A stretch of 47,358 nt of DNA from a virus, in IMG/VR virus record IMGVR_UViG_3300021963_000207, positions 1-47,358 of that record. One strand, given 5' to 3'. Shown here in pieces: positions 11,801 through 31,768 of this stretch; positions within the stretch are counted from its first letter, which is position 1, and every line of letters starts with the position of its first letter. The notes under the pieces were generated by a model. The model was not told the origin of the DNA, made no database searches, and worked only from the letters and a program-made list of their open reading frames with translations. The position numbers and the translations under genes were made by a program.

Positions 11801-14800
11801 TTAAGCTAGAGTTTTGAGGATTTGCTGGATTGATTGAAGCAAGATCTGCAATACTATTTGGATTTATATCAAGGATGACAAATCTAGATTCTTGGAAACC
11901 ACTAACTCTCTTAGTATACGCTCTTGCTCTAGGGATTGCATATGCACAATCTTCAGGAGATGCGAATTGAGTAGTAACAGATGAATGGCTAGTCTTCGAT
12001 TGGATTAGAGCTGTTGGATATAAACTGAAACTTTGGGCTCCATATGGATATGGGGAAATAGTGTTATCAATATCATAGTTAGGATTTCTATCAATTATAA
12101 GTGAAATATATGAGTTATCTGATGATCGTGTAATTCCAAAGATTTCTGGAATATCATATTTTTGAATTTCATCTCCAAAATCATTAAATTGAGTAAATGA
12201 TAGAGGAGTTTTTGCTGCAATAGCAGAACTGATATTATCAGAAGTTACAATAGTTTTAGTTCCAGGAGGAATAGATGCAATTCTTGTTCCAGGTTGAATA
12301 CCAGCTCCAACTATTTTGTCTCCAACTTGAAGTAAATCTACATTATCTAGAGTAATAGTAACTCCACTAGATCCTGCACCTGGATTTACTGCAGTAGTAA
12401 CTCTCTTAATAATTGCTGGTTGATAGCCACCTTCATGCATGAAACCTTTTGGTAGGAAGTTTCTTCTGCGGTTGAGTGCCCAGTTATATGTTAATGTAGT
12501 AAATTCTGCACCATCTTCATTTAAAAATACTAATTTTTTATCTCCAGTTGTGTATCCTGAAATATTTAAATCTTCAATAATATTGGTACGAGAAGAAAGA
12601 TTTCCTTGATAGTTTGGAGATCCTGGTGTTCTATAAATAGAAACCATTACATGAATTTCTTCAGTAGAATCACTACCCCATGTAGTAGCAGTAGATTGAT
12701 TTACTTTTCTTACACTGATAACCTTAGTTTTATCACTTAATATAGATACTGCAGTATTAGTATTTAACCAATACATTGTTGTACCTGGAATAATATATTT
12801 TCTAGCTAGTGCAAAGTTTCTTCTTGATGTTGAATCTGCAGCAAAATTAGAAGCTTTCAATCTAACAATCATGTAACGTGAGTTGGTAGCTGATGCAGAG
12901 TTTAATTCACCATAATTTTGACTATCAATTGAACTATTAATTACATTATCACTATTAACAATCCAATTAAGTTCTGCTTTTGTTTGACCTACACTTACGC
13001 TTGTATTTGCAGTAAAGGATAGTGCTCCATCTACTCCATCTTCGGTTTTTGTATTATAATATTTTTTAATAAATGATTTAGTATAATATGCTTTTCTTAC
13101 TAATCTTCTTGCAGATATAGTATTATCATCATTAGAATATAAAGTATCTGGAATTTCATTTTTAGTTACAGCTTCATTTAATCCTAAGAAGTGTACATTT
13201 GTTAAATTAAATCCACCTTTAGAAGTTAATCCTCCAGGAACGTCTACATAAATTGCATCGTTTCCAAATCCCCATTGATCATTAAATACTGGTGAACGAT
13301 AGAAGTAAATGCTATCACCTCTCTTAATGGAATCTTCAAGATAACCTCCCATTCTTCCTGCTGAAATACCAGTTTGTTCTTTTCCAGCAAATACTGAACT
13401 CTTAACAAGTCCACTACCATTAATTTTAATTTTACATGGGAATACTGAGCCGTCTAGTTTATAATAACCAGGCTTCATAAGAAGTTCTACTTCATCAGTA
13501 GGATTAAATCCACTATTTTCACACCAAGACTGTACTTGTTTGAAGTAAGATAATGGAGCAAATTTCTTAACTGCAGTTCTATTTTGAATGTTTACACCGA
13601 GTGCCTTTGAGCTGAAAGGATTCGGTAGATTTTGTGAAATATAATCCTCGTTAATGTCAACTGCAGATGGAACTGACTTAACTGGAATTTCATATAGAGT
13701 AGCTTCTTCAATATTAACATCTTCTACAGATCCTTTAGTTGGATCTAGAGGTGGAATAAATGGTGATTCAGAAGCCCATCTATCAGAGAATGAAACAATT
13801 GTATTACATCCTGCAAAGAATACGTTTTTATCATCAATTCCTGGATACTTGTTCTCATAATCTGCTCGGTAGGTATGCCCAGCATCATTTGTACTACCGT
13901 TTCCTACTTTTTTAATTAAAGTAAATGTTCCTTGAGTGCTACTCTTAAAGTAAACATAAGTAGAAACTCTATATTGATTAGAAGCAGTTCCTCTTGGATA
14001 TTCTCTTAGAGATAGAGCACCTCTATTTGGCCACTTGTTCCATTCGGTAGCAGTTGTTGTTATTGAAATATTTTTATATGTGCTTGAATCTGCAGGAATT
14101 GGAGATCCAATAGAATCCACAGCAACATCTGAAGATAATTTTGCAGTTAGATATTTAATATCTGCCTCACTAGCATCAATACCGAATGCACCATTTGTCA
14201 GGAATCCAGTATAACTCTTTATAATTTGATTATATTCAGAAGTTCCAAGACAACTCTTAATATAATCTACAATTGGGAAATTATTTTGGAATTTACTTAT
14301 TACAATATAATTTTCTGTATAATCAATCTCATCATATTTTAATGTTACAGAAATCTTTGGATTTAGATAAGATCTTGATCCAGCTGATACTTTGTAATCA
14401 GTAATTTCTACTTGTTGCAATGACATTTCAATATCAATGCTACCATAAGATGGTAATCCAGAAGTTTCCTTTAAATATAGTCTAATTTGTTGATTGTTAG
14501 CTATTTTTGTTTGAATGTAACTTAGAGAAAGTCCTTCATAAATTCCAGTTGTTGGATCATAGCTATCTACTAGAGCTTGAGTATAAGGCTCAATATAAAT
14601 TCTATTATTATCAAGAGTAACTGCAGATGCAGAAATTAGTTGTCTCTTTACTCTCCAGGCATCTAGATACTTAGGAGATACATATAATTTGTCATTAGTA
14701 TCAGTAGAGATAAATCCAGTCTTTTCTGGCTTTGCTCCCTTTACAAATCCATATGCATTTGTATTTGCTTCTGGGAAGAATGCAGCATTATTAATAGATG

Positions 14801-17800
14801 CATTGCTAATATATAGTTTTTCTTGAACAATTAGGCTATTAATTGTTGCAATATTACTTACACTTAATTTCTCAGCATTGAAGAAGTTTGAAAGTGCTTT
14901 AATTGCAGATTGAGCAGAGCCACTCTTACCAGCAGTAGATGCAGTAACATTAACAACAGAGTTTGAAATTCTGTTTTCAATGTTTTCAATATCTACATAA
15001 TTTGATTCAGAAGATTTACGAACTTTAGGAACATTTAGAGATACAGTGCTAGATCCACCAGCCTGAATAATCTGAGTTCCAATATAGAAATCACCGTTAG
15101 AGTTTGTACCAGAAGAAGCAACGAAACCACCAGCATTCTCATATCCCTGAGCAATGTATTGTTCGTAAGGCTTAAGAACTCTGGTTTGTAGCTGTGGGAA
15201 ACCAGTTGAGTAGTTACCAGAACCTAGACCGATATATTCCCAAGTATGTGAAGATGCACGGAGAATAGATGGTCTGTATAGTAATAAAGTTTGGCCAATT
15301 GTATAATTGTTTAATTCAGTTGTAGTGAATGTTGCTTTTGAAGAGTTACAAACTATAATTCTTCTTTCAACTGAATCTCCGACAATACCATATAGGTTGA
15401 TATTTGCAGCAGGGTTATAATCTGCAGCATTTACATTTGTTTGAATTGTTCTGGTTGATTTGTCCTTACCAATTCTATAAGTTGCAGAAGGACCATAGAT
15501 ATCAACACTAGTATTATAACCAAGAGTGGTTAGTCCAGTTCTATCATCCCAGCCAACAACAGGAGCTACTGCAATATTAGCAGTAGATCTGGTAGATGCT
15601 TGTGCGTAACGAAGATCAAATGCTTGAACTAATCTATGAACTGCTTCTGCAGTTATAGAATACATTGCAGGAACATCTCTGAATGGAGTGCTTCCTCCTC
15701 TATATCTTGTATAATTTGGAACAGTTAGATCTTTTATTCTAGTACCAGCTCCAATTTTTTCAATTAATACACGGCTATCTGCTTGTGGTGGGTTCCAAGT
15801 TCTTCTAACATCATAAGTAGGACCTTCTTCATTAACTGATGGATATAGATAATTTACGTTAGATACCAATCTGGTATCTTTATCATAGTTATTAACTTCT
15901 TCAATAAATGAACATGCAAATGAGCTACCTGCACTAATAGCAGTAGGTCTTCTAACTACTTTAGTTACAGCATTGTCATTTCCATCTACAAATTTATTTA
16001 CATCAGCACGAATAAGAGTTAGATAATATACGCCATCTCTAACATTTCTTTCCCAAGTGAGATATTCTTCGACATCCCAGACCATAAATCTATAGTCTGT
16101 ATAAGGCATACCATCTTCACCATTTCCAGGACGAATTCCTTTAATAACGAATCTTTTTTCTGGTGGTTTTGGAATTTCTGCACAATCTTTTGGAATAGTA
16201 TATTCAACTCTCCATAGTAGATCTGATGGAGTTGAACCTCTATTATCTTCATTTTTTGTAACAGTAAGTCCTGCAGGGAATCCATCAAAATACTCTAGGA
16301 TATTTTGAACAGTAGAAACAAATTTTGTAGTAATGCTACCATCATCTGCGATATCTTCAATAAAGCTGAAAACTTCTTCACTCTTTGTTCTAAACACAAA
16401 GCCACTGAGGAAAGATTTCGTTTGAGCATCTGTTCCATCAAGTTTTAAATAGACCCTATTTTTGATTGGATCCCAGAAATATCCTTGGCGCTGAGAATTA
16501 TTTCCAATAGCATTTTCTGCAGTTGTTCCAGTGAAATAAACTTTTGCAAAATATTGTGTCTTATCTCCGTCAGTACCTTCAACTTCTGTTTTGACATATC
16601 TGTAAGCAGAATCAGTTGTTCCAGAAGTATTATAAAAATCTCTGAATAGAGCATATTGATTTGTAGTTCCAAATGTCAAATATCTCTTTGTTACAGTAGG
16701 ATATTCGCCATTTCCATCTGGTGTTTGACTATAATCTGGAGCTTCAACTACTAGCTCTGGAATATCTCCTTCACTGGAGAAATTACCAATTTCTAGATAA
16801 AGTCTTAATTGATCTGCATCAGATGAGAATTGAGATAAACGGCTTGAAACAAAAAGATTGTCTGATTGACCCATTCTTTCCCAAGTATTATCTCTATCAA
16901 TATTATAGAATGTTACATCAGTTGCTTTTGCTGCAATACCTTTTGGAGGAATAATTGCAGTGATCTTACCTTGGGATGCTGGTTTGAATGCATTAAACTG
17001 AGAACCTTTGGCACGTAGGGAAATCTGACCAAAGTTAGAGTTTGAGTTGGTGATAGACATATCACCACCAGATTCTGCAAGGAATTGATCAGCGTAACCA
17101 ACTGCGAAAACAGAAACTACCTGAATGAATCCGCCATTGGACGCTTTAATATGGAAGTGTCTCCAATCATGCTTATACTGTGCATCTGGATCTGCATAAA
17201 TTGGAGGAGCTGTAGTAGAAGTAATGTCATCATTATATAAAGGATTATCTCTATCACCTTCAAGATCTTTTGGTTGAAAGAATGCATTTGCATCTTTTTG
17301 TAGTGAAATTCCAGTAAATTGAGCAACAACCATTGACTTGAAGCTGTTCTCTGCTACTTTGCTGCCATCGGTATGCATACCACACATACCAAATACAGAA
17401 CGCAATGAACAATTGAAGATATATGGCGAGCAAGAATTTACAGTATCAATTGTTATATTTGTGCTTCCGTCTCCAACGATAGTATATTCTTCAGGTCTCA
17501 CATCTCTAGTTCCAGCATTATCAAATGTTTGATCCCATGCATCAATTTTTTTATAATATTGGTCTAGTTCACCATCAGTTGTTCTCTGATCTGCATAAGT
17601 AAATGCAACAACTTTATGGTGAGAATAGTTTGCATTTGGCGCTGTAGTAAATGATGGGATGCCATTTGCATCAAATGATGCTGAATTATAAGGAGTGCCA
17701 AGTGCATCCTTAAAAGTCATTTGCCAGAAATAACAACCACCAGTTACTTTAAATATTGATGTTTGTTTAAATACACCTTGAGTTTTTCTGTATATAGTGG

Positions 17801-19010
17801 TGTATGTATCTGGAGCAGCTAGAATGCCAGATGCTAATTGACCAAGAACATTTACAGCACTTGCTACAGTAGAACAATCTCCGTTGGAAAGGTATCCATT
17901 TCCTGGGCTAAATGAAGTTCTAGTAATAGTTTTGCCAGAAGTATATTCTGTATATGAGCCCCAGTTGTTTTCTACTGTATATCTCATCAGTAGAGCTGCT
18001 CTTATAAATGCATTTTGTGTTGCAGTTACTTCAGCAGTTAGATTTCCGTCACCAGCATTTAGGAATTTATCTCTGTATCCGCCATTACCATCAATATAAT
18101 ATTCAGAATTAATAAATGTATTTTCATTGCCACCTTCTCTTAAGTCAGCAATAACTGCATCAATAAAATACCCAATGTCACGAATACATAATTCTTTTTT
18201 AGTATCATTTAGTGAAGTATATCCTGCTTGAGTGGCTGCTAGATATAGTTTGGTCTGTTCTTGAATGTAACCACGATTTCTTTCAATCATGGTTGCCCCA
18301 TCATACATTACATGTGATAGAATATATCCATCATTAGTAATGCTTCCTTCTTCAGTAGTTGTAGTAGTTGAAGGAATAGGTACATATTTTGGTCTGATTA
18401 CAGTTTTTCTCAAATCGTAACCAACAATAGAAGTACCTCTAGGTACAACAACGCCACCATTTCTGGGATTGAAACGGAATAATCCATTATCAACAGTAAC
18501 AGTAGTTCCTGCAGTGAGGGGATTAGTTCTTACATCATATCCTGGTCTATTGTCAATTTCGTATTGACCTGGCATAACCATGATGGTAAATGCTTCAAAC
18601 TTATCTGGCTCAGATGGCTTGTAGCTCTTTCTCGCTGCTTCTAATAAAGCTCTTTCAATAGTTTTAAATGGTCTATTTAAATTACCGCCGTCATTATCTT
18701 CAGAATCTGTTGCGTTTAGGTCAGACTGATTTACATATAAAGTAATATTTTTTGCACCTAAGAAGTCTGGATTAGTTCCCCCAAGAATAGTGCCATTTCC
18801 AGTAACGATTTTACCATCAGATTTGAAAGTTAGTCTTGGCTGACCTGAGGTGGCAATTGCCACCTCATTTACTGCTGGACTATAGATACCAGTTCCAGCA
18901 TTACCAACTCCCTCAAATCCAATAGCTGGTGCTGTTGGACTATTATTTTGGTCAAATTTTATAGTTATACCTTCCGCAATACCACCAGATGTAATTCTAG
19001 TTAGAGCCAT
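5856..19010 (-). CDS. Giant virion structural protein (4384 aa), beta-helix rich
   Basis: One uninterrupted frame of 13.2 kb begins MALTRITSGGIAEG at the ATG at 19010. The first ~60 residues resemble cyanophage fibre N-termini (GTGIYSPAVNEVAIATSGQ). Next is a segment (DNDGGNLNRPFKTIERALLE...MVMPGQYEI) typical of pectate-lyase-like right-handed beta-helices. A second such region lies near residues 1810-1960 (SWCENSGFNPTDEVELLMKP, then NLTNVHFLGLN). The remainder is Ser/Thr/Asn/Gly-rich with scattered small domains. T4-like cyanophages often carry one very large virion ORF of this kind; placement at the distal tail or as a long fibre is inference. A late promoter lies 34 bases upstream. No catalytic motif was seen. 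Confidence 0.8.
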   Translation of the reverse strand: MALTRITSGGIAEGITIKFDQNNSPTAPAIGFEGVGNAGTGIYSPAVNEVAIATSGQPRLTFKSDGKIVTGNGTILGGTNPDFLGAKNITLYVNQSDLNATDSEDNDGGNLNRPFKTIERALLEAARKSYKPSEPDKFEAFTIMVMPGQYEIDNRPGYDVRTNPLTAGTTVTVDNGLFRFNPRNGGVVVPRGTSIVGYDLRKTVIRPKYVPIPSTTTTTEEGSITNDGYILSHVMYDGATMIERNRGYIQEQTKLYLAATQAGYTSLNDTKKELCIRDIGYFIDAVIADLREGGNENTFINSEYYIDGNGGYRDKFLNAGDGNLTAEVTATQNAFIRAALLMRYTVENNWGSYTEYTSGKTITRTSFSPGNGYLSNGDCSTVASAVNVLGQLASGILAAPDTYTTIYRKTQGVFKQTSIFKVTGGCYFWQMTFKDALGTPYNSASFDANGIPSFTTAPNANYSHHKVVAFTYADQRTTDGELDQYYKKIDAWDQTFDNAGTRDVRPEEYTIVGDGSTNITIDTVNSCSPYIFNCSLRSVFGMCGMHTDGSKVAENSFKSMVVAQFTGISLQKDANAFFQPKDLEGDRDNPLYNDDITSTTAPPIYADPDAQYKHDWRHFHIKASNGGFIQVVSVFAVGYADQFLAESGGDMSITNSNSNFGQISLRAKGSQFNAFKPASQGKITAIIPPKGIAAKATDVTFYNIDRDNTWERMGQSDNLFVSSRLSQFSSDADQLRLYLEIGNFSSEGDIPELVVEAPDYSQTPDGNGEYPTVTKRYLTFGTTNQYALFRDFYNTSGTTDSAYRYVKTEVEGTDGDKTQYFAKVYFTGTTAENAIGNNSQRQGYFWDPIKNRVYLKLDGTDAQTKSFLSGFVFRTKSEEVFSFIEDIADDGSITTKFVSTVQNILEYFDGFPAGLTVTKNEDNRGSTPSDLLWRVEYTIPKDCAEIPKPPEKRFVIKGIRPGNGEDGMPYTDYRFMVWDVEEYLTWERNVRDGVYYLTLIRADVNKFVDGNDNAVTKVVRRPTAISAGSSFACSFIEEVNNYDKDTRLVSNVNYLYPSVNEEGPTYDVRRTWNPPQADSRVLIEKIGAGTRIKDLTVPNYTRYRGGSTPFRDVPAMYSITAEAVHRLVQAFDLRYAQASTRSTANIAVAPVVGWDDRTGLTTLGYNTSVDIYGPSATYRIGKDKSTRTIQTNVNAADYNPAANINLYGIVGDSVERRIIVCNSSKATFTTTELNNYTIGQTLLLYRPSILRASSHTWEYIGLGSGNYSTGFPQLQTRVLKPYEQYIAQGYENAGGFVASSGTNSNGDFYIGTQIIQAGGSSTVSLNVPKVRKSSESNYVDIENIENRISNSVVNVTASTAGKSGSAQSAIKALSNFFNAEKLSVSNIATINSLIVQEKLYISNASINNAAFFPEANTNAYGFVKGAKPEKTGFISTDTNDKLYVSPKYLDAWRVKRQLISASAVTLDNNRIYIEPYTQALVDSYDPTTGIYEGLSLSYIQTKIANNQQIRLYLKETSGLPSYGSIDIEMSLQQVEITDYKVSAGSRSYLNPKISVTLKYDEIDYTENYIVISKFQNNFPIVDYIKSCLGTSEYNQIIKSYTGFLTNGAFGIDASEADIKYLTAKLSSDVAVDSIGSPIPADSSTYKNISITTTATEWNKWPNRGALSLREYPRGTASNQYRVSTYVYFKSSTQGTFTLIKKVGNGSTNDAGHTYRADYENKYPGIDDKNVFFAGCNTIVSFSDRWASESPFIPPLDPTKGSVEDVNIEEATLYEIPVKSVPSAVDINEDYISQNLPNPFSSKALGVNIQNRTAVKKFAPLSYFKQVQSWCENSGFNPTDEVELLMKPGYYKLDGSVFPCKIKINGSGLVKSSVFAGKEQTGISAGRMGGYLEDSIKRGDSIYFYRSPVFNDQWGFGNDAIYVDVPGGLTSKGGFNLTNVHFLGLNEAVTKNEIPDTLYSNDDNTISARRLVRKAYYTKSFIKKYYNTKTEDGVDGALSFTANTSVSVGQTKAELNWIVNSDNVINSSIDSQNYGELNSASATNSRYMIVRLKASNFAADSTSRRNFALARKYIIPGTTMYWLNTNTAVSILSDKTKVISVRKVNQSTATTWGSDSTEEIHVMVSIYRTPGSPNYQGNLSSRTNIIEDLNISGYTTGDKKLVFLNEDGAEFTTLTYNWALNRRRNFLPKGFMHEGGYQPAIIKRVTTAVNPGAGSSGVTITLDNVDLLQVGDKIVGAGIQPGTRIASIPPGTKTIVTSDNISSAIAAKTPLSFTQFNDFGDEIQKYDIPEIFGITRSSDNSYISLIIDRNPNYDIDNTISPYPYGAQSFSLYPTALIQSKTSHSSVTTQFASPEDCAYAIPRARAYTKRVSGFQESRFVILDINPNSIADLASINPANPQNSSLNSYIENAGINADLIKEFASYNPNIFSFGGGVGTGFAANTINFAGESTPAAIAAKLNAAITNNGRKYNGYATATLSPAGGTGGTGYVVYPIINTAGGAGTITGFGVYTVGATQVAFNGNWTITVSDRKGFVLSPTGRTVDVNSTRLDGDDFTFVAKTNFFAAVRVTGNGTVVPGSPYVEDYNLDSFGDIDVLSARGKKIYSSWPQSYRALRRRFPSAPGDSSSAVNGNYQSSLINVDAIPGSNFDLNLSGVTIGAQSPASEAANTFGGGYRGGLIRCRGSKLTLSGTRFRGNLSLDWTGLLSNTNSRAGGLFIAGHSIEMFQMEDQNSFERIGGERPAQHILTSKEDEEFRKITEYDPLSNVFLEPSKDPYGQLSDGDSRTFPISTNQAIRRYNLSPSSITAWDGTVIPPGGVQTRLSLFERYQAPYPLYYDNTTTTNPTSIPNDTNGNKYVELSNGTKASAIRLRWNNSSSTTRSTGTTVTSGDLATLPPKTLTFLYPADTDSGQDLVNNIFFGANATKIVKTTNIETTYATVTRLTTYTNRFDKDGNPSANGAYKLARIKYSGNIPSEIGSTSGSNIQINTRYLDSKRYNYVSTVTSRYQKTVVNGTSKLILATDNNVNTFAEHADLAIGSANITPNVSRATILSLRNLDDNTATDGKVRMSTNSAGVITSLDILDYGSGHKEGAKLAIYNGAINLTSAIQITARRNLDIDVNVLGDSEYMAILPQNCFILNGVNQPSTTAIKQKLVAARTIFKPGSYILLGGTYYRIANTDTTNSKPYLGIYKYINTSNLSDQRADIVVMLEDPEYDPTYPANTRVDLFDYDNILDYWPSSGRMVIGNRETCDFQKVGDPTTNTGYELRLTRSMTKYWPHYIRDWEGLDPNDSTDATVTLSSLESTILRLADPVDVTCYGLRRVFPSTNSSNQSFGTLTVPEYVSPTGIVSNKIARVSIASNNVDNDFQKLSIGQPVTIPYKNITDTYDWSGCTITVGDAQYTAGASNSTNRAGDRMISGTIRSTNTFETRDSRTFNIFGSSATNMEPYQYVNPLTAARFSSPRGETFRIGPAGFVSWNYMWTPLHESANAGQANIKISPAYVRSTHRLGSDAVFTATITDINNTTDPTERILTVTGVTSGGLYKGQPIRTGGTVGSGTLIGYVVGFEGDAINESGTYEDDIVLTGNGGSGVYRIQLQAGVTPPSGSQTFNGQKSGNSDYLVWMRNHCCWTRVITSKSVDATTKVATITLNANLIDPDAQDGNPNTTSVYAGDWVLWYYQSFTDNSVRLILDKPLIENIPEGTTLSLCPCNHQNEGYFGEAGIRETNSFVFKSKIIDIEKDTNKLNIYLADDYPDNYSSSAMRSYGLMYVNSGGWTYPKTGGSSFRPNNAIMTAPDANGIGTTIQLPNRSGRIQAGDLLTYTWEDELVVESTSHAGGTITINNSSTIATQNDQRSYIFPGAVIYDASSNLIGTVTSVTSNAINLNTTYTGNLSSHSGWKYTSTGRTYTFSSQIFSVTTTSGVATCTLASADQYQILHTLFANKKLWLSIDEIFVSHREGNFTNDGPVVKKFIYTDTGVKLTFGDYRIWYERYQNYIRAGTEPGGQEISGRQGWVGNFGLTNAGERAKGLVMNGASSVQWGRQYNYSMWLTAVPVHAIWESVGYGNYMMQINQNIAGIESNYALNTLTSYDRVGRFKLNALNHTSLNTGSIYAGLNHGAYISGGGESYDTKQYQFTSSVRLKYNLQNGTVSGTGTVAGGDTSRLSEQYIVDRIIHYKPSLSITDSRITQTLAISITQNTATLTGTGIGSRLLPGDVVYSGSTPTSSNRIGIVKSVAADGNSVTLSMNYTGTTISGNTSWSYISPRVKHAGTTNAPSNALVFSGGGSTSTTDINDVNNAGFNVAATSATGYNRYNYRFNINRRTFNQTVLLNTYDQLLATKTIDDASKVIDINLGDLSTYRSPLMNVEVTRLNPKTHIEQSISVVGNETNI

Positions 19011-19422: not shown

Positions 19423-19430
19423 TATTTATA
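19423..19430 (-). promoter_or_regulatory. T4-type late promoter for speD, touching tRNA-Leu 3' end
   Basis: An exact TATAAATA on the minus strand. Its first two bases are the last acceptor-stem base and the discriminator of tRNA-Leu. The speD TTG start follows 25 bases later. Confidence 0.7.
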
Positions 19431-19512
19431 GGGACGGGGGGACTTGAACCCCCACGGGCTTGCGCCCAACAGATTTTAAGTCTGGTGTGTCTACCACTTC
19501 CACCACATCCCC
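19429..19512 (-). tRNA. tRNA-Leu (anticodon TAA)
   Basis: An 84-base class II tRNA folds with acceptor GGGGATG pairing to CGTCCCT (allowing two G-U pairs), D arm GTGGTGG...TAGACAC, anticodon stem CCAGA/TCTGT around loop CTTAAAA (anticodon TAA), a long variable arm TTGGGCGCAAGCCC, and T arm GGGGG-TTCAAGT-CCCCC. No CCA is encoded. It reads UUA/UUG, a frequent codon class in this AT-rich phage. It lies between a sigma70-type promoter and speD. Confidence 0.95.
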
Positions 19513-19525
19513 GTGGTATGAGACA

Positions 19526-19554
19526 ATCATAGCATAGCTTGCTGAGATTGTCAA
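19526..19554 (-). promoter_or_regulatory. Sigma70-type promoter between the two tRNAs
   Basis: The minus strand has TTGACA (19549-19554), a 17-base spacer ending TGC, and TATGAT (19526-19531). This extended -10 layout recurs in the window. It would transcribe tRNA-Leu and then speD. Confidence 0.75.
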
Positions 19555-19555
19555 G

Positions 19556-19628
19556 TGCAGGTTGTGGGGATCGAACCCACCTTGGCCGCTTTATGAGAAC
19601 GGTGCTTTCGCCAGAGAGCTAAACCTGC
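19556..19628 (-). tRNA. tRNA-Met (anticodon CAT)
   Basis: A 73-base tRNA has acceptor GCAGGTT/AACCTGC, a short D stem GCT/AGC, anticodon stem CCGTT/AGCGG with loop CTCATAA (anticodon CAT), variable loop CCAAG, T arm GTGGG-TTCGATC-CCCAC and discriminator A. It could be elongator Met, or Ile-type if the C is lysidine-modified by the host. The G1-C72 pair and lack of three G-C pairs flanking the anticodon argue against an initiator. No CCA is encoded. Confidence 0.92.
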
Positions 19629-22584: not shown

Positions 22585-23937
22585 TTAGAATGTTTCTCCA
22601 GTTTCTACTTTTATGTTCTTTATGTTATTTCCACCAAACGAATCTCTAGTTAATGTTGCTATGGTTCTCAATTCAGTTCTATTTAGTATAGTATGCTTGA
22701 TAGAATGTACTAAGTATCTTCCACTTATTCTTTTATCTTCAACAATTTTATTAGACTTATCTCTTTTTGGAGATGGAATAGATATATCAATTACATTTCC
22801 TGCTCGCAATTTCAAATCTCCTGGTATAGAAATTTCTAACTTATTATATTCTAAAAAATAATATCTGTAAATACTTTTTTCATAATTTTTATTAACTTCA
22901 TCTATATTTTTTTTGTTTTCTATTCCTTCGGAATCCAATTCCTTCCAATTAAATGTAGATATTGTTGTTGGTCTATAAATTAATCTTGTTGGTCTGGCCA
23001 GTAAATTATCTGGATCTGTTTTATCTTCTTTCACAACTGGAAATGGTTTCATTTTGTTTAAATGAGTCATATTGTCCCAGTATTCAGAAGCATTTGTTAT
23101 TGTGTTGCTATAACTTCTATTATTAATGTCAATATAAATTGAATTATGACAGAATCCTCCATTACGTAAATCTTCAAAAATATCGAAAGCTTTGGGGGAT
23201 GAATAATTTATAATCCTGTAGTTATTTACATCAGTTTTTGAAGAACTTGTGTTGCCTTGAACGAAAGTATATTTTGTGTTTTTATTTGGGTATGGTTCTG
23301 TATTAAATAATACATCAATTGATTTAAAATTAAATCCGTCTAAAGTTTCATAGAATAAATATCCAATTGAATTTTGATATTTTGATGGTACTGCTCTACG
23401 AGACATCCATATTGCTGTATCAAATAATCTCCAATTTGGAACATACATATCAAAATCATATAAAGTTGGATCTATATGATTTTCAAATTTTTTATTACTA
23501 ATTAATTTAATTTTTTCTTTCAAAAAATCCTCTGCTTTTTTTCCATCAACTCTTTCACGTAATCTAGTATATTCATTCATCAAAGCTTCCTTGCTAACAC
23601 TATGTACAACATATACTTGATTTTTTTCTTGCATCACTCTACCATCAATTTTATGAATATAAAAATTTAAATTGTAATTTGCATATGCTGTGGATACAAT
23701 AATCTGAATTCTTTCCTGTCCAACTAATGGAAGTTCTCCAATTAAATTATTCCCAATATCTTGTATAACTAATTGACAATATAAACTAGTAGAAATTACA
23801 CTTTCATATAAACTAATTTCTTGAACTAACTCCTTTATTTCAAGAAATTTTCTTCCTCCAGTTAAATTTGCATCGTCATGCATAGGATATAGTCTTACTT
23901 CTTTTAAAGAAAAATCTCCAGCAAATTGTTGTTTCAT
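22585..23937 (-). CDS. 27: Baseplate hub protein, gp27-like
   Basis: The 450-residue protein has the layout of T4 gp27, the trimeric torus that holds the gp5 spike. An N-terminal beta domain contains LPLVGQERIQIIVST and NFYIHKIDGRVMQ. A helical DGKKAEDFLKEKI segment follows, then VPNWRLFDTAIWMSRRA and SIGYLFYETLDGFNFKSIDVL, and a second beta domain ends with LRAGNVIDISIPS...SGRYLVHSIKHTI. It is longer than T4 gp27 (391 aa) and the assignment rests on these motifs and on its position beside gp5. The start overlaps the stop of the 987-aa gene by one base (TAATG). Confidence 0.75.
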   Translation of the reverse strand: MKQQFAGDFSLKEVRLYPMHDDANLTGGRKFLEIKELVQEISLYESVISTSLYCQLVIQDIGNNLIGELPLVGQERIQIIVSTAYANYNLNFYIHKIDGRVMQEKNQVYVVHSVSKEALMNEYTRLRERVDGKKAEDFLKEKIKLISNKKFENHIDPTLYDFDMYVPNWRLFDTAIWMSRRAVPSKYQNSIGYLFYETLDGFNFKSIDVLFNTEPYPNKNTKYTFVQGNTSSSKTDVNNYRIINYSSPKAFDIFEDLRNGGFCHNSIYIDINNRSYSNTITNASEYWDNMTHLNKMKPFPVVKEDKTDPDNLLARPTRLIYRPTTISTFNWKELDSEGIENKKNIDEVNKNYEKSIYRYYFLEYNKLEISIPGDLKLRAGNVIDISIPSPKRDKSNKIVEDKRISGRYLVHSIKHTILNRTELRTIATLTRDSFGGNNIKNIKVETGETF

Positions 23938-26900
23938 TATAGTCTACGCTGTGATGAGTAAGATGAACTATCTATTTGTGAAAATGAACCTAATGAATAA
24001 TCTGTCTGTGGCATAGTATATACTAAGTTCATACTAGATACCATCGTAACTTGCTTAGGTATAATATATGTATCTGAAACTAATGGTTGCATTTTAGATG
24101 CTTGAACAAAATTCATACTCTTAGATGCCAATGCAGTAGAATCAATTTTTGGCGCTGATGGGTTTAACATCTCAGCAAGTTTTGCAAGTTGTGGTGCTAT
24201 ATCAGCCCAAGTAGGTGCAGACTCTTCGGGGGCAGACTCCGAACCTGGAGTGGGATTTTGTAAAGAGTCTTGACCAGAATCTTGAATTGGAGCACCTGAT
24301 AACAAACTTCTAACTTGTTGATAATTTAAAAATTCATTCTGTTCTCTATCTTTTACAAATCCAACATGAACATGAGGAACATCATTTGCAACTCCAGACA
24401 ACCCAAGAAAATCGCCAGCATTAATTTTTATTCCAGACTTGTTTGCAACTGAACTACTTAACTGATATAAATGAGTTGCATAGAAGTAATTAACTTGCTT
24501 TCCAGAAAATGTAAATGGTTTATCTAACTTAATACGAACACTATGTTGATCTTGCTTTCCAGGCATGTTTGGATTTGCATCCTGACCCATCTGGCGAACA
24601 TGACCTTTTTCTGCATATTCTAGTATTCCAGAAACAGGAGATACAACTCTAGATCCTATCGGAGTTAAAATATCAAGTCCAGTATCTGCAGCATATCCAC
24701 CTTTATTTGTAGCAATGTTTTGTGAAGGAATTGGATTTACTACACCTCCAGTTTGCATAGCTTTGTATTTTTCAACATTCGAATTATATCTTGATAGGAA
24801 CCCTCTACTATGAACATTCTCCTGAGTTCCTCCAGGTAATGATGGCCAAGTTCCCCTCAACTTTGCGGATGCTTTCAATGGATCTTGCTGAGCATCTTTA
24901 ACTAATTGAGCTTCACCTCCAGGATAAACACTTGCCATTAACATCCTGGCAATTTTTGTTTGATTTTCTTGATTAAATTTGTCTGTGTCTGGATTCAATC
25001 CTGCATCTCTAGCTCTGCTTAAAATAAACTGAGGCATCTGTTGCCATTTACCCATAGCACCAGATCCATTTTTTTGATCTGCAACTTGCAGTGCCTTTAT
25101 TCTAGCCTCTGCAATTGTCATGTTGCTTAGACCAGGAACATTAGTACTTGGATTTACAGAATCCCAACTACCTTCACCACCAGCAATTGCGTCAAGCATT
25201 GCTTTTACTTCTGGAGGCGCATCTCCAGGAAGCATTCCTCCCCCAGTGCCAGCTCCAGTATCATCACTAGGTCCAGGTCTACTAGTAGGAGAAGTGAAGT
25301 CCAAATTGATAATGTTATTCAAAATATCAGCGAGAATTTCACGCATACTATTGCCAGGATTATATCTCTCTTGCTTTTGGCTTTCCTTTTTCTGTAGTAC
25401 AGATAAGGGTAATCCAGCTCCAACAATTTTATTTAATTCTTCGCTGATATTTTCGTCTTCAGAGGTTCCTGCTTTTACATTTAAGTTGCCTGATTGCTTA
25501 GCAATATCTGATGTAAATGTATAATTATTTTTTCCAAACTGACGTGTGTATGGAGCTAGTAATTGCTGAGCAAATGGTCTAATTGATAATCCAATTGGAC
25601 CCATTGAAGATAGCAGTGCATCAATTCCTCCAATCATCGAAGATGCAATAATGCCAAACGGAGCACTCAATAAAGTACCATTATAAATGTGTCCCAGTGG
25701 GATAACTGCTTCAGGTCCAGCCTCACCAATCAAAGCTCTGGTTGGCTTGGTGACAATGCCACCAACAGCAAGTGCAGGTTCTTCTTTCTTCTGCCCACCA
25801 AATATAGACTTCAGCCACCCATATGCCATGTCGGCAATCCATTCTCCAATCAAATTACCAATAAATCCACCTACAGCAAGACCAGCAACCCCACCAATAG
25901 CGGTCCCTGCACCAGGAATAACACTACCAAGGAAAGACCCAAGCAATCCAAACAATATTCTTCCGAGCCATTCTCCTGCGATTGCACCTGCAAATCTGAC
26001 AGCAGATACATCCAGTGGGGTTCCCATTAATAAATTGACTCCAAGACCAATAAAAGGTCCTATAAATGGAATACGTTTTGCAACTGCAGTGGCAGTTTTT
26101 GCTACTGTAGTTTTTACCATCGCAGTTGCAGTTTTGAATCCAAGCTTAATTGCTAATGACTGAATTGCTTTTAATCCACCTTTTCCAAATACTTTTAATA
26201 TGACTCTTTGAATTGCCTGCCCAAGACCCTTTCGGAATATTTGAGGTGTTAATAATTTTTTAATGCCAGCAATAGCACCTTTGAAATCTCTGGAAGCTAA
26301 CGTTTTAAAAATTCTTGATATAATTCCAGCGTTTTTCTTTAGATCCTTTATTGCATTAAATGGATTAGACCATCTAAGCATTTTAGCTAATATAAAGAAT
26401 CCACCAAATATTTTAAATACCGCAAAGAGCCTTTGGATTGTAGTGCTATCTGGAGATACTAAATCTCCCAGACCACCAAGGACTCCCTCAACTCCAATAG
26501 TTGCAAAGAAATCTATAACTTTAAAGAATCCTTTAAAAAAATTAACAATTCCCTGCAATATTTTGACATTATTAGGATCTGCCATCCACAACAATGCTTT
26601 AATTTTTACAAGAGTTAAAAGTAAATCCATTAAGCTAGATGATGCTAATCTTTCTCCCTTTTTAGCTAATTTTCCTTTTAATGATTTTTGTTTCTTTTTT
26701 TCTTGTGCCTTTTCTCTATCTAATATTTGCTGCCTAGTTGCAAACTTATCTTTGGTCTGTTGAAATTTGTCTTCTAACTTTAATCTGTCCTTTTTGAATT
26801 TTAATAACTTTATCGAAGCACTACGAATTTTGGTAAGCTCAGTGAGACGCTTACCTGAATATAAAAATGCACTCGTTTTGATAGGAGTTAATGTCTGCAT
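23937..26900 (-). CDS. Tape-measure-like tail protein with lysozyme-like and M23-like domains
   Basis: The N-terminal ~85 residues are a charged coiled coil. Gly/Ala-rich hydrophobic segments follow (about 275-355). At ~379-402 is GGIVTKPTRALIGEAGPEAV, a motif common in phage tape-measure proteins. Residues ~560-690 resemble a lysozyme or transglycosylase fold (AIAGGEGSWDSVNPS, GSGAMGKWQQMP). Residues ~728-850 resemble a peptidase M23 domain (GLDILTPIGSRVVSPVSG, THLY, then HVHVGF), but the usual first metal-binding His appears as Asp (DTGLDI), so activity is uncertain. It probably sits in the tail lumen or hub and helps breach peptidoglycan. It lies one base from a paralogous gene and overlaps the gp27-like gene by one base. 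Confidence 0.78.
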   Translation of the reverse strand: MQTLTPIKTSAFLYSGKRLTELTKIRSASIKLLKFKKDRLKLEDKFQQTKDKFATRQQILDREKAQEKKKQKSLKGKLAKKGERLASSSLMDLLLTLVKIKALLWMADPNNVKILQGIVNFFKGFFKVIDFFATIGVEGVLGGLGDLVSPDSTTIQRLFAVFKIFGGFFILAKMLRWSNPFNAIKDLKKNAGIISRIFKTLASRDFKGAIAGIKKLLTPQIFRKGLGQAIQRVILKVFGKGGLKAIQSLAIKLGFKTATAMVKTTVAKTATAVAKRIPFIGPFIGLGVNLLMGTPLDVSAVRFAGAIAGEWLGRILFGLLGSFLGSVIPGAGTAIGGVAGLAVGGFIGNLIGEWIADMAYGWLKSIFGGQKKEEPALAVGGIVTKPTRALIGEAGPEAVIPLGHIYNGTLLSAPFGIIASSMIGGIDALLSSMGPIGLSIRPFAQQLLAPYTRQFGKNNYTFTSDIAKQSGNLNVKAGTSEDENISEELNKIVGAGLPLSVLQKKESQKQERYNPGNSMREILADILNNIINLDFTSPTSRPGPSDDTGAGTGGGMLPGDAPPEVKAMLDAIAGGEGSWDSVNPSTNVPGLSNMTIAEARIKALQVADQKNGSGAMGKWQQMPQFILSRARDAGLNPDTDKFNQENQTKIARMLMASVYPGGEAQLVKDAQQDPLKASAKLRGTWPSLPGGTQENVHSRGFLSRYNSNVEKYKAMQTGGVVNPIPSQNIATNKGGYAADTGLDILTPIGSRVVSPVSGILEYAEKGHVRQMGQDANPNMPGKQDQHSVRIKLDKPFTFSGKQVNYFYATHLYQLSSSVANKSGIKINAGDFLGLSGVANDVPHVHVGFVKDREQNEFLNYQQVRSLLSGAPIQDSGQDSLQNPTPGSESAPEESAPTWADIAPQLAKLAEMLNPSAPKIDSTALASKSMNFVQASKMQPLVSDTYIIPKQVTMVSSMNLVYTMPQTDYSLGSFSQIDSSSYSSQRRL

Positions 26901-26901
26901 T

Positions 26902-29900
26902 TTATGGTGCTAATGGATAGGTTGCTAGTGGAATTGGAGGAGTAGTTCCACCTAAAGGTTGAGCCAATGGTCTGCTATTAGCTTCAGATATTGTCTGTGG
27001 CTGTGTTGGAAGTGTAACAATATTTGGTCCAGCATTTCCTGCCGTTCTACGTTGTGCTTGGATATTATTATTTTCTCGTTGAGCACTCTGTAGACTTTGA
27101 GATCTTGGAGATGTTGAAGGAACAACTTTTAAAGGTTGTGCTTTTGCAGTGTCAGTTGATTCTGGTCCATGAGTTTTAGATGGAGCCCCAGTTAACATCT
27201 CAGTTAGTTTAGTTAATTGTGGAACTATACTGGACCAAGTTGGTTCTGGAGTATTATTTTGATCTGCATTAGATGTATCAGTGCTTGCAGTTGATGTGGT
27301 TTGTCCTGTTACAGATGGAGTTGCTTTTCCTTTAGTCCACGCAATAGGTTCAACCTTTCCTCCAATAGTTCCATTCCAAGAATTTCCAATCTCCCAGTGC
27401 AAATGTGGACCTGTACTTCTTCCTCCACCATGTTGATGTCCACTAGATGCAACTTGTTCTCCAGTTTTTATGGTATCTCCTTTCTTTTTAGTATATGAAC
27501 TAACATGTCCAAATAATGAGAACAATCCGCTATTACTCTTCAATACAATATAGTTCCCCCATCCACCAGAATTTTTATTGATCTCATGAACCTTTCCATC
27601 AAATGGAGATAGCAATGGAGTTCCCACTGGCATTGGCAAATCTCTTGCTACATAACCATGCTCCAGACCTCTACCCAATACAACCCCACTGGAATCTTCT
27701 GGAACTGGTGCCCATCCACCACCAAGTTTCAAAAATTTTCTAGTTGCAACTGGACCACCACCAAATCTTGGGAAGAGTCCATGGTTTATTTTATCTAATG
27801 CTGCTGGACCACCCATTGCTTTAGTGGCATTTTTGTTCAGCATATATTCACCAGGCTCTGCCAATATACTGATTTTATCTCCAATTCCACTTCCTCTTAT
27901 TGGACCACCCTTATCAATCCATTTTGCATCTTGTTTAACTTGAGTTTTAGATCCAGTGGTTTCTTTTTCTAATGTTCCTCCTTTATTAATAATTCTGAAT
28001 AACTCTAACTGTCGTTGAATCTCTTGATTATTTCTTGAGCCAACTGTACGCTCACTTCCAGCTGCAGTAAATCCTTTGTTTATTTGATCTTCGGTGACTG
28101 CTTTTAATTTATATACTGGGTCCCCGACCCCCATCATTGTTGCTAAACTAGTATTATTTCTGGTTGTAGTGGCTTCGTATAATCTTCCCTGACTATCTTG
28201 CCAGAATCTATTTGCAGTATTGACAATATAGTTGAATCCCTTCTTTTCTAAATCTCGTCGAGTTCCCGCAACATTTTGAACTTTGGAATCACCAGCCTTC
28301 GCAAGATTCGCATTTTCTTGCATTGGTTTTGTAGATCCACCTACTTTAGTAGGATTAGCTGATGGCTCAGTTGAAGGAGTCGTGGAAGGAGTCGTGGAAG
28401 GAGTCGTGGAAGGAGTCGTGGAAGGTGGTGTAGTTGATTGTGGATTGTCGCTAGAAGATTTAGAATTCTTACTAATCAATGCACTAAGAATATCTCCTAA
28501 CAATCCTCTAACTGAAGTATCTCCCGAAGGTTTAAACTCATCTGCTTTAGACTTAGTTACTTTTGGTTCTTCGATACCAAATACTTCTTTCACCGCAGAC
28601 ATTCCATCTCCAACAGATTTAATTGCTGCAGATGCAAAGTTAGACATTCCCTTCACAAGTGAAGGAGGAATGCCAAACATAGATGCAACATTAGAAATCA
28701 GAGGCATCAAAATTGGACCGATGCCAGGAATCCTAGAAACACTAGAAGATATTAAAGCAACTATACCAGCACCAACAATCTTAAATGGAAGGGTAAGTAA
28801 CTTTATAAAACTTGGAATCTGCTTATCGACCTGACCTTTGAATTCATCAACTCCAAAGGATCCCAATTTATCCAATGGAAGAATAGCTTCTGGCCCAGCT
28901 TCTCCGACAATTGCTTCAGTTGGTTTAGTAACAATACCACCTTTAGCAAGTTTAGGTAGTTCTTCATCCTTTTTACCAAAGAGTCCTGATATTCCTTTAC
29001 CAACTGAGGCTATTAAATTTCCACCAGGAATTACATTTTGCAGTACAGTGCTGGCAACATTCTTTAGAGAATCGCCAAACATCTTTCCGAAATCAATTCC
29101 CTCGGATTTGGATTCTTCCCCTCCGCTTGGTGCTACTTCAGCTTTAGCTGGTTCTACTGATGGAGAATTTACTTCGGATTCCAGTTGATCTTTAGTTCCA
29201 TTCAATCCTTGAGTTAGAACACTCTCAATGAAATTTGGAATCAAGTTAGTTACAAAACTAACCAAAGATCCTATTGCATCTGGAATAGATTTTAATACAT
29301 TAATTGAATCAGATATTAATTTACCTACTCCTTGAACAGATTCTCCAAGCCATTTGAATGAAAGAAAATCTACTATTCCACCGACAACTTTGATAACCAG
29401 ATCAAAAGCTTTTGGAAGATTATTTAATACTATACCAATTGGACTTGCCCCAAAAGCAAACGCAATTCCTTTCCCAATAACTCCAATAAATTTGAATAGT
29501 CTAGAGAAGAAATTTATTATGTTCTGTATCTTCTTTGCATTCTCTGGCTTCCCAGCCCACTCAAGAATTTTATAGCCAATGAATAACTTCATCATTTTCT
29601 GAAGGAACTCTGCAATTCCTTCAAGTCTTCTTTGACCTTCTTTGACTAAAGGATTCTTTGTTTCATCTTTATTTTTATCTCCATCCTTTTTATTTTCCTG
29701 AGATGCTTCCTCTTCTTTCGCTTGTCTTTTTTCTTCAGATAATGCAAACTTTTTAATGGACTCTCCGACCATATCAAAGTGTCTTTTTTCAAGAGTCACT
29801 AAAGTTTCTAATGCTTTTCTGATATAGCTTAACTCTTTTACTTCTTTAAGTGCTGTTGCTTTTTCTGCAGCTTCACTCTTTAGTGTTGATCTTTTTGCAC

Positions 29901-29991
29901 CAGAAAATGCTCCACCAAATTTAGTTGGATCAACAAATGAAGTTACCTTTGATGTTGGAGTTTTCTTAAAACTAAAGAGTGAGACTGCCAT
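26902..29991 (-). CDS. Tape-measure-like tail protein with C-terminal M23 peptidase domain
   Basis: The 1029-residue protein has a charged helical N-terminus, hydrophobic helices at ~130-260, and GGIVTKPTEAIVGEAGPEAI near 330-355, the same tape-measure motif as in its neighbour. A Pro/Thr linker (repeating TTPS) lies near 517-545, and a second tape-measure-like motif (ILAEPGEYMLNKNAT) near 700-725. Residues ~770-870 form an M23 endopeptidase domain with all expected metal-binding elements: HGYVARD, VGTPLLSPFDGKV, LFGHV and GPHLHWE. It is predicted to cut peptide cross-links of the host wall during DNA entry. It begins four bases after the gp51 frame, directly downstream of gp26/gp51, as tape-measure genes follow chaperone genes in other tailed phages. 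Confidence 0.8.
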   Translation of the reverse strand: MAVSLFSFKKTPTSKVTSFVDPTKFGGAFSGAKRSTLKSEAAEKATALKEVKELSYIRKALETLVTLEKRHFDMVGESIKKFALSEEKRQAKEEEASQENKKDGDKNKDETKNPLVKEGQRRLEGIAEFLQKMMKLFIGYKILEWAGKPENAKKIQNIINFFSRLFKFIGVIGKGIAFAFGASPIGIVLNNLPKAFDLVIKVVGGIVDFLSFKWLGESVQGVGKLISDSINVLKSIPDAIGSLVSFVTNLIPNFIESVLTQGLNGTKDQLESEVNSPSVEPAKAEVAPSGGEESKSEGIDFGKMFGDSLKNVASTVLQNVIPGGNLIASVGKGISGLFGKKDEELPKLAKGGIVTKPTEAIVGEAGPEAILPLDKLGSFGVDEFKGQVDKQIPSFIKLLTLPFKIVGAGIVALISSSVSRIPGIGPILMPLISNVASMFGIPPSLVKGMSNFASAAIKSVGDGMSAVKEVFGIEEPKVTKSKADEFKPSGDTSVRGLLGDILSALISKNSKSSSDNPQSTTPPSTTPSTTPSTTPSTTPSTEPSANPTKVGGSTKPMQENANLAKAGDSKVQNVAGTRRDLEKKGFNYIVNTANRFWQDSQGRLYEATTTRNNTSLATMMGVGDPVYKLKAVTEDQINKGFTAAGSERTVGSRNNQEIQRQLELFRIINKGGTLEKETTGSKTQVKQDAKWIDKGGPIRGSGIGDKISILAEPGEYMLNKNATKAMGGPAALDKINHGLFPRFGGGPVATRKFLKLGGGWAPVPEDSSGVVLGRGLEHGYVARDLPMPVGTPLLSPFDGKVHEINKNSGGWGNYIVLKSNSGLFSLFGHVSSYTKKKGDTIKTGEQVASSGHQHGGGRSTGPHLHWEIGNSWNGTIGGKVEPIAWTKGKATPSVTGQTTSTASTDTSNADQNNTPEPTWSSIVPQLTKLTEMLTGAPSKTHGPESTDTAKAQPLKVVPSTSPRSQSLQSAQRENNNIQAQRRTAGNAGPNIVTLPTQPQTISEANSRPLAQPLGGTTPPIPLATYPLAP
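28373..28420. repeat. 12-bp tandem repeat (4 perfect units)
   Basis: Four perfect copies of gaaggagtcgtg (plus reading) plus a partial fifth lie in the 1029-aa gene and encode a repeated four-residue Thr-Thr-Pro-Ser unit on the minus strand. The unit is a multiple of three, so copy number can change the linker length in frame. Confidence 0.95.
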
Positions 29992-29994
29992 GTA

Positions 29995-30183
29995 TTAGAG
30001 AGGCTGTGAAGTTTTATTCCTATTATTTTCTTCTTCAATAAATTCAATCAACATTTGAACATACACATCTCGTTCCCAGGGAATCATCAATTCAATTTCA
30101 CTCAATGACCATTTATGATGTTGCAATAATGTAAAGTTAGTGCGAAAATAATTCTCTAACGATTGATGTGCTAGGTTTATGCG
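29995..30183 (-). CDS. 51: gp51-like baseplate hub assembly protein, probably made by -1 frameshift from gp26
   Basis: This frame encodes 62 residues from the shift point to the stop, including ENYFRTNFTLLQHHKWSLSE and IPWERDVYVQMLIEFIEEEN, the pattern I associate with cyanophage gp51 (hub assembly catalyst). It has no ATG or GTG. Upstream it is open only from a TGA at 30202-30204, and the conserved part begins before the only TTG. The frame is -1 relative to gp26 and the gp26 end carries T TTT TTC (30184-30190), a canonical slippery heptamer, seven bases before the gp26 TAA. The likely product is a gp26-gp51 fusion of about 297 residues. An ATA start overlapping the gp26 stop is the weaker alternative. 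Confidence 0.75.
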   Translation of the reverse strand, partial: RINLAHQSLENYFRTNFTLLQHHKWSLSEIELMIPWERDVYVQMLIEFIEEENNRNKTSQPL

Positions 30184-30887
30184 AAAAAAGACGCAAGACC
30201 CTCAATAACAACTTCACTATCCTTTCCTGTATTTGGATTTGAAACAGTAATAGTATGACTTAGTTTAGGCATAGTTTCAAAGAACTTTTGAACTCGCATA
30301 AACTGACTAGTATCAAAGCTGTCTAGGAATTCAGTAATTTCTTTTTTACTGAAACTCTTGACTTCATAGACTTCTTCGCCATCAATTACTTGATCAATAC
30401 AGGATTGAGCCAACTCAAATACATCTTCAGTTTTCATGGTTCCAGTGAAATTGTTTTGAACAAACATTTCCATACTTGGATACTTCATAACAAGTGAAGT
30501 CTTGTCATTCAATGCAATAATACGTTCATGATCATCTGATTTCTGAATGTTAATGTCTTCAACATTGATAGTTACAGGAACCACAGTTTCGCCATCATCA
30601 GGACAGGTTACATTCAGTTCAATTTCTTCGCCAACTGATTTTGCACGAATGTTTAAGAACAGATATTCAATATCGAAGATAGAAAGATCATCAATTTTTA
30701 CTTTAGTTTGAATGCAGTTTTTGAGAATAGTTTGTACTGCATTGATCATTTGTTTCTCATCTTCAGATTCCATAGCAAGCAGAAGAACTTTTTCTTCTTT
30801 AACTAGGAATGGACGATATTTGATTTTTTGGCCAGTTGAAGGAAGTTCCAACTCATAAGTCGGGGCAACTAATTTAGGTAATGGCAT
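30177..30887 (-). CDS. 26: Baseplate hub assembly protein gp26
   Basis: The 236-residue protein (MPLPKLVAPTYELELPSTGQ) matches the T4 gp26 family (T4_baseplate): a beta-rich start with KIKYRPFLVKEEKVLLLAMES, then ILKNCIQTKVKIDDLSIFDIEYLFLNIRAKSVGE and a CPDDGE-containing beta section. T4 gp26 (208 aa) is needed for assembly of the central hub. It lies directly before gp51 and the tape-measure-like genes. The end of the gene contains the slippery run described for gp51, so two products (short gp26 and a gp26-51 fusion) are predicted. It begins 32 bases after the end of gp54. Confidence 0.88.
   Translation of the reverse strand: MPLPKLVAPTYELELPSTGQKIKYRPFLVKEEKVLLLAMESEDEKQMINAVQTILKNCIQTKVKIDDLSIFDIEYLFLNIRAKSVGEEIELNVTCPDDGETVVPVTINVEDINIQKSDDHERIIALNDKTSLVMKYPSMEMFVQNNFTGTMKTEDVFELAQSCIDQVIDGEEVYEVKSFSKKEITEFLDSFDTSQFMRVQKFFETMPKLSHTITVSNPNTGKDSEVVIEGLASFFA
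30184..30190 (-). promoter_or_regulatory. Predicted -1 ribosomal frameshift site (T TTT TTC)
   Basis: On the minus strand the gp26 codons read TCT TTT TTC GCA TAA. The heptamer T TTT TTC fits X XXY YYZ with both tRNAs able to re-pair after a -1 slip. Reading then continues CGC ATA AAC into the gp51 frame. No strong downstream stem or pseudoknot was obvious by eye. Confidence 0.65.
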
Positions 30888-30919: not shown

Positions 30920-31768
30920 TTAACCAACAGCAGTTCTCCAATTTCCACTTGCACCAATAGTTCCTCCAGTTTGAGAAGCTGGTGCGACCATATCATATTC
31001 AAAAGTAACTTGAATTTTTACCAATTGTGATGCCCCACTATTCAATGGAATTGCAGAAATTGTAGTTGGAAATGCATTTTTTATCCTAACAGAATATTTT
31101 TGAAGTGCTTGTCCAAACTCAGAGTCAACCATTCTCTCTGAAGCAACATTAACTCCAGGGAATAAATCTGCGTTTGATATTACTTTGTGTGGAACAATTT
31201 CTCCATTAATATTTAAAGACAGAGGACTATTTTTTTTACTACTTCTATATCGTTCTAGTTTAATGATTACAATATCTAAAGTATAATCATCTTTATATCT
31301 AGTTCTTCCTAAATCAGTTATAGAATTAATATTTATTCCATTAATTCTATCTCCGTTTGATGTAATTCCACTGTAAATATAATTTCCCCACCCATCAAAA
31401 GTTTGTCGTATTTCGGAATCTGCGTCGGAAATAAACGACATAGTAAGTTCGTTATTAACTACGCCATATGCGTACTTCATGTTAGGACTGTTTGTAATTC
31501 GGAAATCTCCAGTTGCAATAGAAAACCCAGGAATAGAACATTCATCTGCATATAATCTCATTAAATTACTAATCGTGCCACCACCAGAAGTATTAGTTTG
31601 AATTCCTCTTGTGAAAATACTTTTTAAAAAACTTGAATTATTATTTCCCAATAAAAATTGCACATCATAAAAATTACTTAATGAAAACCCAGATGTCGAT
31701 ACATAAGATTTGAATTCTTTGAAATTTTTAATATCTCTATCTAATATCGTATCATTATACTTTATCAT
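30920..31768 (-). CDS. 54: Baseplate tail-tube initiator gp54-like
   Basis: In T4, gp54 binds the baseplate on gp48 and starts tail-tube polymerisation. The 282-aa protein shows the tube-like beta fold of the gp19/gp48/gp54 group: FYDVQFLLG, LYADECSIPGFSI, then NSPNMKYAYGVVNNELTMSFISDADSEIRQTFDGWGNYI (given here in part), which parallels the T4 gp54 region around its NSPNIRITGRELDPLVISFRMD. A C-terminal strand VKIQVTFEYDMVAP follows, and the protein ends GASGNWRTAVG. Its ATG overlaps the stop of the 185-aa gene (ATGA), indicating translational coupling. Confidence 0.78.
   Translation of the reverse strand: MIKYNDTILDRDIKNFKEFKSYVSTSGFSLSNFYDVQFLLGNNNSSFLKSIFTRGIQTNTSGGGTISNLMRLYADECSIPGFSIATGDFRITNSPNMKYAYGVVNNELTMSFISDADSEIRQTFDGWGNYIYSGITSNGDRINGININSITDLGRTRYKDDYTLDIVIIKLERYRSSKKNSPLSLNINGEIVPHKVISNADLFPGVNVASERMVDSEFGQALQKYSVRIKNAFPTTISAIPLNSGASQLVKIQVTFEYDMVAPASQTGGTIGASGNWRTAVG

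Follow-up and report, generated by a model that had tools for sequence, protein, structure and literature searches.

A slippery heptamer at the end of gp26 points to a -1 frameshifted gp26-gp51 tail assembly chaperone in a T4-like cyanophage

The T4-like cyanophage IMGVR_UViG_3300021963_000207 (47,358 nt, analysed over its whole length and called the window hereafter) carries, at the 3' end of its minus-strand tail protein gene gp26, a slippery heptamer T TTT TTC from which the -1 reading frame leads directly into a gp51-like segment. On comparative sequence evidence we consider it highly probable (roughly 90%) that this locus is decoded by programmed -1 ribosomal frameshifting and yields a short tail assembly chaperone (TAC-N, like lambda G) as well as a long one (TAC-NC, like lambda GT), the ribosomal nature of the slippage and the chaperone role being the parts that we infer. 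The locus sits between the tail tube gene and two tape-measure-like genes, and is laid out as follows, in the order of transcription.

30920..31768, minus strand: tail tube protein gene, directly upstream of gp26 (PF23849, E 4.6e-12; PHROG 45, E 1.4e-26)
30177..30887, minus strand: gp26, putative short tail assembly chaperone (TAC-N), 236 aa, zero frame (PF12322, E 1.8e-76; PHROG 150, E 9.6e-84)
30198..30203, minus strand: internal Shine-Dalgarno-like element GAGGGT, with 10 nt between GAGG and the heptamer
30183..30189, minus strand: zero-frame slippery heptamer T TTT TTC, placed 10 nt ahead of the gp26 TAA
29995..30183, minus strand: -1 frame extension (gp51 segment), 62 codons and a stop
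26902..29991, minus strand: tape-measure-like protein 1, 1029 aa, with a GEAGPEAILPL motif, a C-terminal M23 peptidase domain (PF01551, E 6e-19) and weak matches to tape-measure PHROGs
23937..26900, minus strand: tape-measure-like protein 2, 987 aa, a paralogue of protein 1 (BLASTP E 3e-14)

The gp26 product of the window scores 257.1 bits against the T4 gp26 family profile PF12322, whose curated cut-off is 24.5, and its gene ends with the codons TCT TTT TTC GCA TAA. Across 24 window ORFs with 12,429 codons in all, T TTT TTC occurs in frame a single time, at precisely this 3' end. From 30201 on, the -1 frame meets no stop until 29997..29995. The preliminary description of this DNA had placed the heptamer at the end of gp26 and had the -1 frame running into a 62-residue gp51-like segment; both observations hold, since the heptamer is in the zero frame (30189..30183) and the 62 residues after the slip (RINLAHQ...SQPL) match PHROG 634, "baseplate hub assembly catalyst", with an E-value of 2.2e-28. 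Residues 1-235 of gp26 followed by this segment would give a predicted fusion, TAC-NC, of 297 residues. With a loose cut-off, tblastn matched the gp51 segment of the window in 611 phage records. Three bases past the -1 frame stop, at 29991, the first tape-measure-like ORF begins. It and the second ORF are probably tape-measure proteins; they have in common the motif GGIVTKPTxAxxGEAGPEAxxPL, and a clear M23 peptidase domain is kept only in the first. Elsewhere on the minus strand, the window holds one ORF of 4384 residues (5856..19010) and two tRNA genes, Leu (taa) and Met (cat), at 19429..19628.

The comparison of the site among relatives draws on IMG/VR and GenBank phages, which gave 253 usable loci, reduced to 157 distinct lineages that are less than 92% identical. 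Of these, 153 have T TTT TTY or T TTT TTA at the site (T TTT TTC in 146, T TTT TTT in 6 and T TTT TTA in 1) and gp51 always lies in the -1 frame; the four lineages that lack the heptamer are three Ackermannviridae and one contig with a broken frame. Given the residues and the codon usage, the chance of finding the heptamer in all of 37 lineages is about 10 to the power of -32, under an assumption of independence that is only partly true. Moreover, over 111 disjoint pairs with 60-90% identity, synonymous identity at both phenylalanine codons of the heptamer is 1.00 (111/111 pairs) against a baseline of 0.62 (SD 0.12), and the synonymous constraint is limited to the heptamer and to one codon of the Shine-Dalgarno-like element upstream. 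The T TTT TTY form is also kept in named phages of Aeromonas (Aeh1), Cronobacter (S13), Variovorax, Desulfovibrio, Pelagibacter (Mosig), Ochrobactrum and Vibrio (EniLVp02) and in freshwater cyanophages, and the -1 relation of gp51 to gp26 is constant across phages of unrelated hosts. Rhizobium phages have T TTT TTG (AF3) or T TTT TTA (RHph_I1_18) at the same place. In RHph_I1_18 and Mosig, the distance from the slip site to the gp26 stop is 31-34 nt instead of 7-16, so that their short form has a C-terminal tail of its own, and protein homology in the -1 frame still begins at the slip site. Against frameshifting itself stand the Ackermannviridae relatives (four loci), in which no canonical heptamer accompanies the gp51-like segment in the -1 frame of gp26; some of these loci have a TAATG junction.

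Upstream of the heptamer, the mean energy of pairing with the anti-Shine-Dalgarno tail of the 16S rRNA has a sharp minimum at the GAGGGT element, with -7.2 kcal/mol against -0.3 elsewhere. The glutamate codon four codons upstream, which supplies the first bases of GAGG, is GAG in 109 of 143 lineages, compared with 30% in the rest of gp26; the formal p-value of this enrichment, 2e-29, overstates its certainty because the lineages counted are related. Synonymous identity at the same codon is 0.86 in the 111 pairs, against the baseline given above. In the E. coli dnaX frameshift cassette, a Shine-Dalgarno-like element stands about 10 nt before the heptamer A AAA AAG and a strong hairpin follows. 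The cyanophage site thus resembles dnaX in its upstream element and differs from it in its heptamer and in having only weak and varied downstream structure. Just after the heptamer, the mean folding energy is -9.5 kcal/mol per 50 nt, versus about -6 nearby. A downstream stem-loop or pseudoknot was considered as a universal stimulator and rejected, the structures being weak and different between lineages and the window folding poorly.

The preliminary description had stated that the segment contains no ATG or GTG and a single TTG; this does not hold for the whole segment, which, counted from the gp26 stop, has ATG at +92 and +125, GTG at +113 and several TTG codons, the first at +53, but it does hold for its beginning, since the first 19 codons after the slip are free of all three. 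The same absence over at least the first 15 codons is found in 34 of the 153 lineages, the window included, and in Desulfovibrio phage 7757 it extends to the whole -1 gp51 frame. For these start-less lineages (24 disjoint pairs), dN/dS over the first 15 post-slip codons is 0.10 when they are read in the -1 frame; the two remaining frames give 2.1 and 1.7. As selection on the protein is visible in the -1 frame only, these codons would be translated in the -1 frame without a usual start. The first -1 codon after the slip encodes arginine in 129 of 153 lineages; the zero-frame residue at this place varies (Ala, Gly, Val, Asp and others, chiefly from GNN codons).

The other lineages include 94 of the 153 that have an ATG four codons after the slip. 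Homologues with a normal ATG start and no slippery run had been named as a finding that would refute frameshifting; the ATG start is common, yet the lineages that have it keep the heptamer. It might be that both routes are used, with a frameshifted long chaperone everywhere and, in the ATG-bearing lineages, an additional free gp51 made by reinitiation, for which the conservation of the heptamer alongside the ATG would speak. We regard this as a possibility of lower rank, although a real one: the position is Met in 94 lineages and Leu in 55, as for an ordinary hydrophobic residue, no Shine-Dalgarno sequence stands at the proper distance from the ATG, and the combination cannot hold for the window, where the start is absent. 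Much less probable is that gp51 is only a separate small protein, translated by coupling or reinitiation near the gp26 stop, and that the poly-T run is incidental. An ATG does overlap the gp26 stop or lie just past it in many relatives (TAATG, TGATG, TAGxxATG; ValKK3 and Marzo are examples), and databases annotate a gp51 CDS of its own in ATG-bearing phages. But coupled reinitiation fails for the start-less lineages, because their -1 codons are selected without any start; the heptamer and the arginine codon, which precede the ATG, are kept even where an ATG is present (Arg in 83/94), and about 25 nt separate the Shine-Dalgarno-like element from that ATG, too great a distance for initiation there. 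Transcriptional slippage on the T run (T6-T7 throughout) as the source of the -1 product is about as improbable, as the run is fixed at T6 followed by C in 146/157 lineages, tracts on which transcription slips are usually longer than T6, and a constrained Shine-Dalgarno-like element, spaced as in dnaX, would be of use to ribosomes alone. Programmed ribosomal frameshifting, as the preliminary description had proposed, is thus the reading best backed by the nearly invariant heptamer, the constant -1 relation, the selection on start-less codons, the synonymous constraint and a fusion of the two parts in T4.

The last of these concerns the T4 proteins themselves. T4 gp51 (249 aa) contains the whole PF12322 domain (residues 1-201, E 3.9e-52) and, behind it, the gp51 tail; it matches PHROG 150 over residues 3-248 and PHROG 634 with an E-value of 1.2e-23. 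T4 gp26 consists of the PF12322 domain alone, and the two proteins are paralogues. A profile-profile comparison of gp26 with the single T4 gp51 sequence gave no useful alignment, but the Pfam and PHROG profiles did align. From its domain content, T4 gp51 is evidently a natural in-frame gp26-gp51 fusion. Since one T4 protein is the domain with the tail and the other the domain alone, T4 would thus have hard-wired short and long forms, of which the cyanophage arrangement would be the frameshifted version. The T4 genes 26 and 51 are divergently transcribed and gene 26 ends in GAG TTC TTT GAG, without the heptamer, whereas the window has one locus and a frameshift site. A full-length T4-type gp51 was found by tblastn in 1,339 phage records, 1,334 of them with at least 80% coverage.

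We know of no sequence homology between gp26/gp51 and lambda G/GT, and the likeness is one of arrangement. The AlphaFold model of gp26 has a pLDDT of 86 and the gp51 segment is predicted to be all-helical (pLDDT 85). In a Foldseek search of the PDB with gp26, the HK97 tail assembly chaperone 2ob9 had the highest probability among the matches listed (0.47), but with an E-value of 1.2 it is not significant; a PDB sequence search with the gp26 profile gave no match, nor did Foldseek of the gp51 segment against the PDB. The locus shares with lambda G/GT (Levin 1993; Xu 2004) a short product, a -1 slippery site near its 3' end, a start-less extension and an adjoining tape-measure gene; it differs in its heptamer and in the Shine-Dalgarno-like stimulator, which is a feature of the cyanophage site. 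The analogy with G/GT that had been drawn earlier is supported by the position beside the tape-measure-like genes and by the T4 paralogues.

From these observations we infer two products, slippage at some frequency and a G/GT-like role in coating and tube loading. The gp26 gene and the gp51 segment would be a single gene with two readings. Most ribosomes would end at the TAA and release the 236-residue TAC-N, while some would pause at U UUU UUC with the tail of their 16S rRNA base-paired to the GAGG upstream; there the two tRNA-Phe may slip by -1 and re-pair on UUU UUU, and the slipped ribosomes would make the TAC-NC that ends in the helical gp51 domain. If the lambda model applies, the tape-measure protein encoded just downstream might be coated by many copies of the short form and few of the long one, which would recruit tail tube subunits and then leave. 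More tentatively, and with less than even odds, the dnaX-like cassette (GAGG, ten-base spacer, U UUU UUC) could make frameshifting far more frequent than the few percent of lambda and thereby set a different short-to-long ratio in the T4-type tail, in which case the T4 genes 26 and 51 might be a duplication that hard-wires this ratio.

The preliminary description knew of no earlier account in cyanophages. For T4-like phages this cannot be maintained in view of the work of Vladimirov, Gautam and Davidson (2022; Virology 566:9-15), which identified the tail assembly chaperone genes of T4-like phages. The phage group is the same and, according to papers that cite this work, so are the genes: poly-T slip signals are known in TAC-N genes of T4-like phages (PMC12846349), and in some T4-like phages a short gene and a long fusion gene take the place of the frameshift (PMC10885494). 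As far as these citing papers show, the frameshifted tail chaperone of T4-like phages is therefore a kind already described in 2022, to which the window adds a member. No report of a gp26-gp51 frameshift in cyanophages was found in the open literature searched, and none of the records examined annotates a joined (slippage) gp26-gp51 CDS. The G-T frameshift has been described as widely conserved except in T4 (PMC5009743). The tail chaperone locus of Vandenendeviridae and Andersonviridae (PMC12846349) likewise has a -1 TAC-NC upstream of the tape-measure gene and a slip site in a T run; these are other families, and their conserved motif is GTTTTT, in place of the T TTT TTC of the window.

The finding may resolve a puzzle in the literature by one rule. 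T4 gp26 and gp51 have been given as hub assembly chaperones, gp51 being essential, absent from the particle and of unknown function (PMC3004832); gp51 of cyanophages and vibriophages has been reported as "missing the first ~200 residues", and gp51 as "missing" in Aeh1 (PMC3037559). The apparently lost residues would be gp26, supplied by the frameshift. Cyanophage gp51 would often be missed because T4 gp51 is a gp26-gp51 fusion, of which the cyanophage -1 frame encodes the tail part; the preliminary description had expected the frameshift arrangement to account for such omissions. Aeh1 has its gp51 segment in the -1 frame, unannotated. Such segments, present in the -1 frame yet unannotated, were also seen in Cronobacter S13, S-BM3 and ACG-2014d, and annotators could recover gp51 in all four of these genomes. 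The frameshift site extends to phages of Desulfovibrio, Variovorax, Pelagibacter and rhizobia, and the role of the essential T4 gp51 becomes testable as that of a long tail chaperone.
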